DNA of 29,590 bases from a virus, in the IMG/VR virus record IMGVR_UViG_3300042465_005040, positions 1 to 29,590 of that record. One strand, given 5' to 3'. The position numbers were made by a program, and so were the translations under genes. Positions 6,919 through 12,711 of the stretch are shown one piece after another (the first letter of the stretch is position 1; every line of letters starts with the position of its first letter). The notes below the pieces were generated by a model that ran no database searches, was not told the origin of the DNA, and was given only the letters and a program-made list of their open reading frames with translations.

Positions 6919-7434
6919 TTAGGTGCGGACTTTCCGCTTTCTGATTTTAGCCGCCGTCTTCTCAATGGCCGGCCCTAGTTCTGATTTGTATTTGTCCAGC
7001 GTCGTCGTCTTCGTGGAGGCGTAGGCCGTCCGCATGAATGGCCTTGGCGGATTGCCGGGAGTCACTATCTCCCCCTTCCGTCCATATCCACCTCGGGACG
7101 CCGTCCCATACTCCACCAGGTGGGCATACTTGGCAGGCCGCACCGTCGTTATGTTCCCATTCCCGAATCGGTCCACCTGCCCAGTCACATTGTTGGATGG
7201 CCCCACATAGGCCGTCACCATCTGCTTGCGCGTATTGGTCACCACCTTCTGCTTGATGCTCTTCTTCAGCAGCCCGGTCGCCCCCGTTGGCGCACCCCGC
7301 TTCACTGCCGCCGTCATCATCCGCGCCGCCTTCGTCAGAGAGTCACGCATCGCCCCACGCCCTATCTTGTCGGTCAGCTCCTTTACTGCTGCCTCCGCAT
7401 CTCTTGCCCCTGTCACTCTAGTGTTGAATTTCAT
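6919..7434 (-). CDS. HK97 gp10-like tail completion / head-tail joining protein
   Basis: This 171-residue basic protein has the hallmarks of the HK97-gp10 family: an N-terminal helix pair, APTGATGLLKKSI, YAHLVEYGTASRG, and the terminal NPPRPFMRTAY motif. It is thought to act at the connector or tail junction. Its ATG overlaps the stop of the upstream chaperone gene (ATGA at 7431-7434). It is oddly placed. In most siphophages this gene sits between head closure and tail terminator, but here it lies after the tube and chaperone genes and directly before the tape measure gene. The family call is confident. Confidence 0.85.
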   Translation of the reverse strand: MKFNTRVTGARDAEAAVKELTDKIGRGAMRDSLTKAARMMTAAVKRGAPTGATGLLKKSIKQKVVTNTRKQMVTAYVGPSNNVTGQVDRFGNGNITTVRPAKYAHLVEYGTASRGGYGRKGEIVTPGNPPRPFMRTAYASTKTTTLDKYKSELGPAIEKTAAKIRKRKVRT

Positions 7435-7754
7435 GAGTTGATCTGTGTCAGGACATTCATCGCCAGCTCCACCTTCTTGGCCACCACCTCCGGCGGCACT
7501 TCGGTTACAGGTTGAGGCTCAGGCTTTTGGATTTGCGGCAGGAAGTCGTCAGGGGTGAATGGCTCAGGGTGGGATTTAGGATCGCGGTGGCAGTTATACA
7601 GGCAGGCGCAGATCATCGCAGCATTGTAGGACGCCGCTCTCGCCTTGTCCCGCCATTCGCCGATCGCCTCCCGCATGATCTGTTCCACCTCCGCCGGCGT
7701 AAGCCCCCAAAAAAGATCGCCAGAGAGGGACGCGACCCGGTGAGCACGGGCCAC
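7431..7754 (-). CDS. tail assembly chaperone, downstream (T-like) part; possible frameshift product
   Basis: This 107-residue reading from GTG at 7754 includes LTPAEVEQIMREAIGEWRDKA and NAAMICACLYNCHRDP. It lies between the tail tube genes and the tape measure region, where the T part of a G/GT chaperone pair is expected. The same frame stays open upstream of the GTG as far as the end of the preceding gene, reading ANDNQSAREGQSAAYWAGS from 7811, and has no ATG there. So it may be made by a +1 ribosomal frameshift from the preceding gene near 7812, or by starting at GTG within a structured mRNA region. An overlapping ATG-initiated frame (7807 to 7613) is arginine-rich and looks non-coding. The reading frame is confident, the way it starts is open. 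Confidence 0.6.
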   Translation of the reverse strand: MARAHRVASLSGDLFWGLTPAEVEQIMREAIGEWRDKARAASYNAAMICACLYNCHRDPKSHPEPFTPDDFLPQIQKPEPQPVTEVPPEVVAKKVELAMNVLTQINS

Positions 7755-7815
7755 ACTCCCGGCCCAGTAGGCCGCAGACTGTCCCTCTCTGGCAGATTGG
7801 TTATCATTCGCTTTT
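7719..7815 (-). promoter_or_regulatory. candidate frameshift site and 13-bp stem-loop between tail chaperone frames
   Basis: In message sense, the upstream frame ends GGC AAA AGC GAA TGA. The run AAAAG at 7815-7811 could let the lysyl-tRNA slip +1 into the frame of the following gene. From 18 nt downstream of the A run there is a perfect 13-bp inverted repeat: GCCAGAGAGGGAC at 7793-7781 pairs with GTCCCTCTCTGGC at 7731-7719, with a 49-nt loop that itself contains a GGGCC/GGCCC hairpin. The alternative GTG start at 7754 lies within that loop. The repeat is seen directly. The recoding role is inference. Confidence 0.45.
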
Positions 7816-8094
7816 GCCCGTGTCAGCGGCCTTCGCGGTCGCCTCCCGGATAGAGGCTGGCACCAGATCGCGGCGGATCGCCTCCGTCAGCAGCTCGATG
7901 TGTTCACCCGGCGTCATGTCATCGCACGCCTCCGCCACCTTCGCAGCATCAGCATCCGGCATCCCGCCGATCGTGATCTTCTTCCGGCTCTCAGAGTCGG
8001 TGATGGCATCGCCTGACAGCTTCATCAGGTCTATCCCGTGGCATTCAAAAAGCTGGCGGACAGCGCGGGTCGTGAATCGTGGTTTTAGGTCCAT
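7804..8094 (-). CDS. tail assembly chaperone, upstream (G-like) part
   Basis: This 96-residue protein with mixed helices (RAVRQLFECHGIDLMKLSGDA, GEHIELLTEAIRRDLVPAS) sits just after the tail tube genes. In siphophages that place belongs to the gpG-like chaperone that coats the tape measure protein during tail assembly. Sequence alone does not identify it. Position, size and the frameshift-like junction at its 3' end support the call. Its leader is A/C-rich (CCTAATCCACCACAC). Confidence 0.55.
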   Translation of the reverse strand: MDLKPRFTTRAVRQLFECHGIDLMKLSGDAITDSESRKKITIGGMPDADAAKVAEACDDMTPGEHIELLTEAIRRDLVPASIREATAKAADTGKSE

Positions 8095-8132: not shown

Positions 8133-8570
8133 TCAGGCAAACTTGGTGTAGACCGGCTTGCCGCTCACCTTGATCGTCACCGGAGCCATGATCCCGGATT
8201 TGACAGGGAAGGTCAGGCCGATCTTGGTAAAGATACCCGCAAAGGCGATGTAACCACCAGCCGCAGTGCTGACCCAGCCTGGCATCTTGAGATAAAAGTT
8301 ATGCTTCTGCCGGCCGACCACATCGTTATAGATCGTCTCATGAGCCGCCAGATTCGGATCAAAGACCAGGTCGAACGAGACATCACCACTGTCAGCGATC
8401 CCAGCGAGGAACTCCGTAAAGAAGTCCGCGCTGTCATGAGTGGTGACATCGATCGTTTCGACAGAAACCTCCGGGCCAGAGATGTCGCCCACGTTGGCCA
8501 CATCCGTATAGCTCCCGGTTTGGAGTCGCTGAATCGCCAGTTTAGTGCCGTATGCTGCTTTTTTAGCCAT
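8133..8570 (-). CDS. major tail tube protein, short paralogue
   Basis: This 145-residue protein forms a stack of hexameric rings making the tail tube, as inferred from position and pattern. It shares MAKKAAY at the N-terminus, GDISGPEVSV at residues 28-37, the DVTTHDS segment, LAGIADSGDVSFDLVFDP, and the C-terminal APVTIKVSGKPVYTKF with the gene immediately upstream (8612-9433). It is therefore a tandem paralogue lacking the large insertion of that copy. Size and the pattern GPEVSVETIDVTTHDS fit the lambda gpV/HK97 gp6-like tube family. The leader contains ACTAATATAACACT and no Shine-Dalgarno. It is likely the main tube subunit. Confidence 0.8.
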   Translation of the reverse strand: MAKKAAYGTKLAIQRLQTGSYTDVANVGDISGPEVSVETIDVTTHDSADFFTEFLAGIADSGDVSFDLVFDPNLAAHETIYNDVVGRQKHNFYLKMPGWVSTAAGGYIAFAGIFTKIGLTFPVKSGIMAPVTIKVSGKPVYTKFA

Positions 8571-8611: not shown

Positions 8612-9433
8612 TCAGACGCGGGTGTAAACAGGTGCCCCGCTGATTTTAACGCTCACCGGAGCCTTTAGCGCATCGCCCACTGGGGCCAGAATCCCCACCT
8701 TGGTGACGAGGCCCGTGAAATTGAACCGGGTGGCCGTGTTGCTGGTGATGCCCAGCATTGAGACGCCAGCGATAGAAAAAGTCTGCAGCGTGCCAATGCT
8801 GGACGGAACCTCAATCCTCAAAAGCAGGCTCGTTGATACCGCATCCCATCGCACATATTGCGTGCCGCCTTCGGATGGGTTCACGGTCCCGACAACGGCC
8901 CCGCCATGCAGCACGTTGATGCTTGCCGTGCCTTGGGTGGTCCCGGTGAATGTAATGGCCACCACATAGCTTTCAGCGATCAGCGGGGCCACCGTCAGCG
9001 TAGCCTCGATGTAATCACCCGCCGCAGGATCGGCTGCCGTGTAGTATGCCACCCCTCCACCTATCGTGAAGTTGCCATTCCTCACCCACCCCACCACCGA
9101 CCCCGCAAAGCTCGTGGTCGGGATTAATTGCGTCGAGTCAGCCGGAAGCCGGATCACAAACGCCGCCGGCCTCCGCTCATCTACCATCGCCAGCAGCCGG
9201 GAGTGTCCGTTGTCATTCGGATCGAAGAACAGCTCAAAGGTCACATCCCCCGCCTCCGCAATCCCTGCCAGCGACTCAGAAAACCCATCAGGACTATCAT
9301 GCGCCGTCACATCCACCACCGCCACGGAAACCTCCGGCCCGGAAATATCCCCCAGATGTTTCACCCGGATCACGGAAGAGTCTGCCGGGTCAGTGATTTG
9401 GATGCGGGTATTGTATGCTGCTTTTTTGGCCAT
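8612..9433 (-). CDS. tail tube protein, long paralogue with inserted beta-sandwich domain
   Basis: This 273-residue protein matches the 145-residue tube protein at both ends: residues 1-100 (MAKKAAYNTR, GDISGPEVSV, LAGIAEAGDVTFELFFDP) and 235-273 (ending ISGAPVYTRV). Between them, residues about 102-234 form an inserted domain with alternating beta strands: GWVRNGNFTIGGGVAYY, YIEATLTVAP, ESYVVAITFTG, YVRWDAVSTS, LLLRIEVPS and FSIAGVSMLGI. The pattern resembles a carbohydrate-binding jelly roll (CBM4/9-like) more than an Ig domain. It could decorate the tube surface or form a distinct ring. Orthodox tail tubes carry extra Ig-like domains at the C-terminus, not an internal insert, so this arrangement is notable. 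The paralogy is seen directly, the fold and role are inferred. Confidence 0.8.
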   Translation of the reverse strand: MAKKAAYNTRIQITDPADSSVIRVKHLGDISGPEVSVAVVDVTAHDSPDGFSESLAGIAEAGDVTFELFFDPNDNGHSRLLAMVDERRPAAFVIRLPADSTQLIPTTSFAGSVVGWVRNGNFTIGGGVAYYTAADPAAGDYIEATLTVAPLIAESYVVAITFTGTTQGTASINVLHGGAVVGTVNPSEGGTQYVRWDAVSTSLLLRIEVPSSIGTLQTFSIAGVSMLGITSNTATRFNFTGLVTKVGILAPVGDALKAPVSVKISGAPVYTRV

Positions 9434-12100: not shown

Positions 12101-12711
12101 TTGACCGCCCCCTCCCAAGGCACCCGGAAAGAATCGATCAGCCAATCCAGTGATTTCGGAATCTCTGTGACTGTCGCGCCGCTGATTACCATCTCCCGCC
12201 GCTCAAAGAGATGCGCCGTCAGCAGCAGAATAGCATGGCGCAGCGGCCCCGGAACGTCTGTGGCCAGCGCACCATACCCAGCCCAGAACGTCGCCCGCCA
12301 GACCGCATCCTGTGGGCTGCGCGGGGTATCGATATTGTCCGGGTAGGAGGTGATCCAGAGCAGCGCCGGCTCTCTGGCAGGCTGCTGGGCAGTGTTTGTC
12401 CATGCCGTCCAAGTGCCGGCATCGTTGCGGTATTCCAGCAAGAAGGTCTCTGCTGCCATCAGCCTGGCGCGGGGCAGTTCCACGGTCACCCCCTCGGCGA
12501 AATCGCCCGTGATGTAAGCAATCCACTTCTGCCTGACAAAAGCCCTGCGGCATTCGTTTTCGATCCGATCCCGCGCCGCCGTGATGCAAAGCCCGATCAG
12601 CGAATCCTCATCGCTACCATCTACCCGCAGATGCTCCTTCGCTTGAGCCAAGGTGATTGGCTCAAGCGCAGGTGCAGTGACCAGCTGGGAGATGGCAGCA
12701 GAAGGAATCAT
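12097..12711 (-). CDS. head-tail connector (gp6-like, phiE125 gp8 family)
   Basis: This 204-residue protein has ITLAQAKEHLRVDGSDEDSL followed by IGLCITAARDRIENECRRAF, a near-diagnostic N-terminus for the phage connector family that forms the ring below the portal. Later blocks are PQDAVWRATFWAGYGALATDVPGPLRHAILLLTAHLFERRE, again typical. Its start overlaps the preceding stop by ATGA at 12708-12711. It sits just downstream of the capsid region, as expected. Confidence 0.85.
   Translation of the reverse strand: MIPSAAISQLVTAPALEPITLAQAKEHLRVDGSDEDSLIGLCITAARDRIENECRRAFVRQKWIAYITGDFAEGVTVELPRARLMAAETFLLEYRNDAGTWTAWTNTAQQPAREPALLWITSYPDNIDTPRSPQDAVWRATFWAGYGALATDVPGPLRHAILLLTAHLFERREMVISGATVTEIPKSLDWLIDSFRVPWEGAVK

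Follow-up and report, generated by a model that had tools for sequence, protein, structure and literature searches.

How ribosomes enter a reading frame that has no evident start codon at its opening is the question raised by a tail gene locus in the window, the whole 29,590-nucleotide stretch of viral DNA that was analyzed. A first-pass annotation had proposed a programmed frameshift in a tail chaperone, in the +1 (or -2) direction and accompanied by a stem-loop, and its other option was initiation at GTG 7754, exposed or hidden by the same structure. Comparison with relatives supports a programmed +1 shift in a tail chaperone of uncultivated phages, with a conserved stem.

A tail chaperone locus with an overlapping downstream frame

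The minus strand carries the structural genes of virus record IMGVR_UViG_3300042465_005040, in the order large coat protein, two major tail proteins, G, T, neck or tail-completion protein, and tape measure. The two major tail proteins are tandem paralogues (8133-8570 and 8612-9433, both PHROG 158), the second of which has a large insertion. Just downstream of the large coat gene, we also observed a 20-nt inverted repeat (12632-12676) that is 90% complementary and has a 5-nt loop. The reading frames of the G/T region are as follows.

7804-8094, minus strand: G-like tail assembly chaperone open reading frame (96 aa)
7804-7806, minus strand: UGA stop of G
7431-7886, minus strand: T-like open frame, +1 (or -2) relative to G
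7431-8094, minus strand: predicted GT fusion (220 aa), with AAAA taken as a single Lys step

The G-like protein has relatives at 46 to 99% identity in the same gene position. Its 3' end reads GGC AAA AGC GAA TGA, and it therefore ends soon after AAAAG (7811-7815), as the first-pass annotation had it. The T frame runs uninterrupted from 7886 down to a stop codon at 7431-7433. It is placed at +1 (or -2) and not at -1 with respect to G, and it has no ATG until well within the T domain, the first usual start codon being GTG 7754; on both points, the open reading frame positions agree with what had been claimed. Sequencing error was rejected as the source of the frame offset, since the same frames occur in eight contigs besides the window.

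The T frame of the window matches Pfam PF06223 (Phage_tail_T) above cutoff, and so do the predicted GT fusions of two divergent relatives, L072 and L073. The overlapping frame pair sits between the major tail protein and the tape measure, the downstream frame lacks a start of its own, and its coding reaches towards the frame junction. Judged from its relatives, the locus encodes the G/GT tail assembly chaperones of a long-tailed phage. A Foldseek search with a model of the T frame gave no significant match in the PDB; in BFVD, it gave weak matches to phage proteins, "Minor tail T" among them.

The +1 members form one branch among -1 relatives

With T, G, and the major tail protein as queries, a broad family of 71 distinct relatives was gathered. 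T lies in the -1 frame in 61 of them, that is, 60 as scored plus L055, which was initially scored as +1 but proved to be -1 once its true G was used. An X XXY YYZ heptamer stands in the correct frame in 51 of the 60 scored -1 relatives, although those distant from the stop may be due to chance. In a single case (L010:2602-3225), G and T are fused in one frame and a frameshift is unneeded. The +1 arrangement is confined to the window's group (seven distinct sequences), L072, and L073, which are the only three independent +1 lineages in the collections. The canonical -1 arrangement, which combines a -1 T frame with an in-frame heptamer, is not the one found in the window, and a -1 heptamer is absent from the G/T overlap of all three +1 lineages.

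In a midpoint-rooted T tree that included six of the nine +1 members, these form one branch with a support of 100/100, placed among -1 relatives. The simplest account of this topology would be a single change of direction, in the ancestor of the +1 clade. One -1 subfamily (L093, L096, L098, L099, L101, L103, L107, and L110) carries AAAAAAC or CCCAAAC touching the G stop, with a hairpin of 70 to 72 nt span 5 to 6 nt downstream whose excess stability is strong in some members.

A shared AAA AGC motif as candidate slip site

The motif AAA AGC G is present in the G frame of all nine +1 members, and its Lys-Ser codons form a conserved island within an otherwise variable G tail; they could, however, be kept for the G protein alone.

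7810-7815, minus strand: candidate site of the +1 slip (AAA_AGC), kept in frame by each of the three +1 lineages

Because of an upstream T-frame stop in L072, its T frame becomes open just one codon before AAAA. This late opening restricts the entry point to 8 codons, with AAAA at their start. A lysine tRNA that slips by +1 on AAAA regains full pairing, while no re-pairing common to the +1 lineages exists for a -2 slip. Of the two directions left open by the first-pass annotation, +1 is thus the one favored over -2. The forward "four" criterion of PRFect asks for four identical bases over the P-site codon and the next base and for a new A-site codon that is the commoner one (PMC10885494). The window has AAAA at this place, and GCG is commoner than AGC (215 versus 96). 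Transcriptional slippage was rejected as well, the A run being just 4 nt (5 in L072).

Two further elements were noted in this region. In the window, L072, and L073 alike, GGGAGG (7842-7847 in the window) precedes AAAA by 26 nt and encodes R-E within REA; this constant spacing differs from the known distance of Shine-Dalgarno stimulators. In L073, GGGGAGGCGGAGGCC (L073:3380-3403) stands immediately before UGA and is Shine-Dalgarno-like, as is the element ahead of the RF2 shift site.

A stable and covarying hairpin downstream of the G stop

A 13-bp perfect inverted repeat had been noted 18 nt downstream of AAAAG. The repeat search found exactly this, with perfectly complementary 13-nt arms at 7719-7731 and 7781-7793 separated by 49 nt. 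The structure was characterized by folding, shuffles, and covariation.

7719-7793, minus strand: 75-nt hairpin, outer helix of 13 bp (7781-7793 with 7719-7731)
7732-7775, minus strand: inner helices (7758-7775 with 7732-7750)
7712-7854, minus strand: block in which synonymous sites are frozen across eight close relatives, from 4-fold site counts

Folding of the minus-strand RNA gives a single rod with an energy of -54.9 kcal/mol (z -5.65), and none of 200 dinucleotide shuffles was as low. When synonymous codons were shuffled so as to preserve the T protein, 0 of 1,000 sequences reached the hairpin's energy (z -3.53). Among 507 coding windows of 96 nt, the hairpin has both the lowest energy (-54.3, the next being -44.5) and the lowest z. 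No match was found in Rfam up to E = 1. A segment upstream of AAAA could pair with the hairpin loop in each lineage, at differing places.

Between close relatives, 4-fold degenerate sites are unchanged in the G tail (0/9) and in the hairpin (0/18), as opposed to 22 of 42 and 30 of 45 changed outside. The sole varying hairpin site is an unpaired internal-loop CC (7739-7740), which is replaced by AA. L072 carries a hairpin in homologous columns with an outer-stem sequence largely different from that of the window, and nevertheless 12 of the 13 outer pairs are kept, four of them by compensatory double changes (4 of 500 shuffles reach that). The L072 hairpin also has excess stability of its own (z -3.65, 2/1,000). 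The compensatory changes, together with the synonymous freeze, indicate selection on the structure; recent recombination might contribute to the freeze seen between close relatives, but it would not account for the compensatory changes. L073 retains AAAAGCG but just 4 of the 13 outer pairs, and its hairpin is only modestly stable (z -2.1 and -1.5 in two computations). The covariation that had been proposed as a check is therefore borne out by L072 and not by L073, so that the structure is conserved in two of the three +1 lineages.

Spacing of the hairpin and its relation to -1 signals

The 13-bp stem begins about 16 nt past the AGC codon in the window, and the distance is 26 nt in L072 (15 to 26 nt overall). 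A canonical 3' structure lies 5 to 9 nt from the slip site, and hairpins block the A site only at 11 to 12 nt from the P-site codon (PMC7282821). The hairpin is thus too far from the proposed slip codon for a classical stimulator or for the known pausing mechanism, and for this reason a shift at the UGA has to be weighed as a rival.

Several -1 relatives carry a 68- to 76-nt hairpin at the start of T, about 6 nt past the heptamer. Among the 51 heptamer relatives, the stem starts exactly 6 nt past the heptamer in 12 and at 4 to 8 nt in 20, many of these being close kin. A spacing of 6 nt corresponds to the contact distance found for pausing. From these comparisons, the hairpin of the +1 members appears to be inherited, having been kept from the -1 signal of the ancestor.

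T-frame coding extends upstream of GTG 7754

The alternative to a frameshift would be a separate T protein, made either by initiation at GTG 7754, which the hairpin would hide or expose, or by re-initiation past the G stop.

7752-7754, minus strand: GTG codon within the apical hairpin, in the middle of predicted T helix 1; an unlikely start

The position of the codon in the apical hairpin would suit such control, and all three +1 lineages use GTG for the corresponding Val; GTG is, however, simply the commonest Val codon (190/308). Upstream of it, the T frame encodes EGQSAAYWAGSVAR. Between the window and L072, the T-frame differences in this upstream part number 3, 1, and 7 at codon positions 1, 2, and 3, being thus mainly at third positions. 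An AYWAG stretch just upstream of the GTG is common to the three +1 lineages, and its Trp is found in most T domains. In an AlphaFold model of the T frame only (mean pLDDT of 87), helix 1 is predicted as AAYWAGSVARAHRVA, with the middle Val encoded by the GTG. A start at GTG 7754 would cut both helix 1 and the upstream T-frame coding, and frameshift entry is therefore better supported. As to re-initiation, an ATG does overlap the G stop (ATGA), but it is in another frame whose protein is unconserved. The relatives, moreover, rely on frameshifts. Independent initiation, as the first-pass annotation had suggested for 7754, is thus unsupported, given the T-frame conservation, and is very unlikely in either form.

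Proposed mechanism and rival explanations

The best explanation, and a probable one on comparative grounds, is a +1 shift at AAA_AGC in a G/GT pair that descends from a -1 signal and has retained its hairpin. We infer that the majority of ribosomes would translate G and terminate at the UGA at 7804, while a minority would shift by +1, most likely when peptidyl-tRNA-Lys occupies AAA (7813-7815) and AGC (Ser) is the A-site codon. The tRNA-Lys would re-pair perfectly on the overlapping AAA, GCG would be read next, and translation would then continue across the hairpin to the T domain. The signal would derive from a -1 frameshift signal, its direction having switched once, in the ancestor of the clade. 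As for the hairpin, it may act by making ribosomes pause where G ends or by holding terminating ribosomes in place. More tentatively, the flip from -1 to +1 might have come about by replacement of the heptamer by AAA_AGC, with the kept 3' hairpin stimulating a forward shift from 15 to 26 nt away by a mechanism undescribed for classical stimulators; we regard this fuller account as possible but doubtful.

The main rival to a shift at AAA_AGC is a +1 shift at the G stop itself, in the style of antizyme or release factor 2, with UGA in the A site and the ribosome slowed by the hairpin. G ends with UGA in each of the nine +1 members, and the outer stem begins at a near-constant 8 to 10 nt past this stop in the three lineages, its distance from AAAAGC being variable. 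Weaker pairs in the window may lengthen the stem to 3 nt past the UGA. The codons directly 5' of the UGA, however, are not conserved (GAA, CCA, and GCC) and would re-pair poorly one base on. The stem also lies 14 to 16 nt from the first P-site base, past the contact distance of 11 to 12 nt (PMC7282821), and the conserved AAA-AGC-G would be left unexplained. On balance, we consider a shift at the stop unlikely.

The hairpin could also have no present role, being a relic of the ancestral -1 signal, with AAA_AGC alone setting the level of the shift. The overlong spacing and the weak stem of L073 would fit, but the compensatory changes and the synonymous freeze imply that the structure is under selection in the window's group and L072, and we rate the relic as unlikely. 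Even further from our expectation, and highly improbable, is a decoding-independent terminator or attenuator of transcription, a GC stem followed by UCUUUUUU. The U run does adjoin the stem in the window, but it corresponds to Phe-Trp codons and is lost in L072 (ACUUUUGG), the hairpin was not called by a terminator scan, and homologous hairpins stand at classical -1 spacing in relatives. Bypassing of the hairpin was rejected, as the T frame running through it encodes conserved protein.

Comparison with known systems

The shift at AAA_AGC that we favor can be set beside several known systems. Lambda-type G/GT genes use a -1 programmed frameshift for tail assembly (Xu, Hendrix and Duda 2004; reviewed in PMC5009743). 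The present locus resembles them in gene position, in its two predicted products from frames overlapping near the end of G, and in its PF06223-family T domain; it differs in the +1 direction, in having no X XXY YYZ heptamer, and in a hairpin farther from the slip site. A +1 frameshift has been proposed for the tail chaperone of the haloarchaeal myovirus HSTV-2, as cited in PMC5009743. According to that citation, the direction and the kind of gene are the same, and the virus group is different. In Listeria phage PSA, +1 frameshifts occur at CCC_UGA in tsh and at ACA_CCC, with a 3' pseudoknot, in cps (PMC5009743). These are likewise +1 events in phage structural genes, one of them with a 3' RNA structure, but they use a proline codon rather than AAA_AGC, and the gene is not the chaperone. 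Antizyme (UCC_UGA) and RF2 shift +1 at UGA, antizyme with a 3' structure. Here too a UGA is near the proposed shift and a 3' structure is present as in antizyme, but their shift codon adjoins the UGA, while the motif shared by the +1 members stands a few codons upstream of the stop.

Both directions are found in one gene family with homologous T domains and with a hairpin in both, so that the determinants of direction (slip codon, spacing, and stop) could be tested by segment swaps. Bacterial +1 sites are few and have no agreed general motif (PMC10885494). AAA_AGC is a candidate +1 motif for annotation pipelines, which otherwise would call G alone or a truncated T. Since +1 shifts in phage tail chaperones have already been reported or proposed (PMC5009743), the kind of event is known; the new parts are the AAA_AGC motif, the spacing of the hairpin, and the switch of direction inside a largely -1 family.
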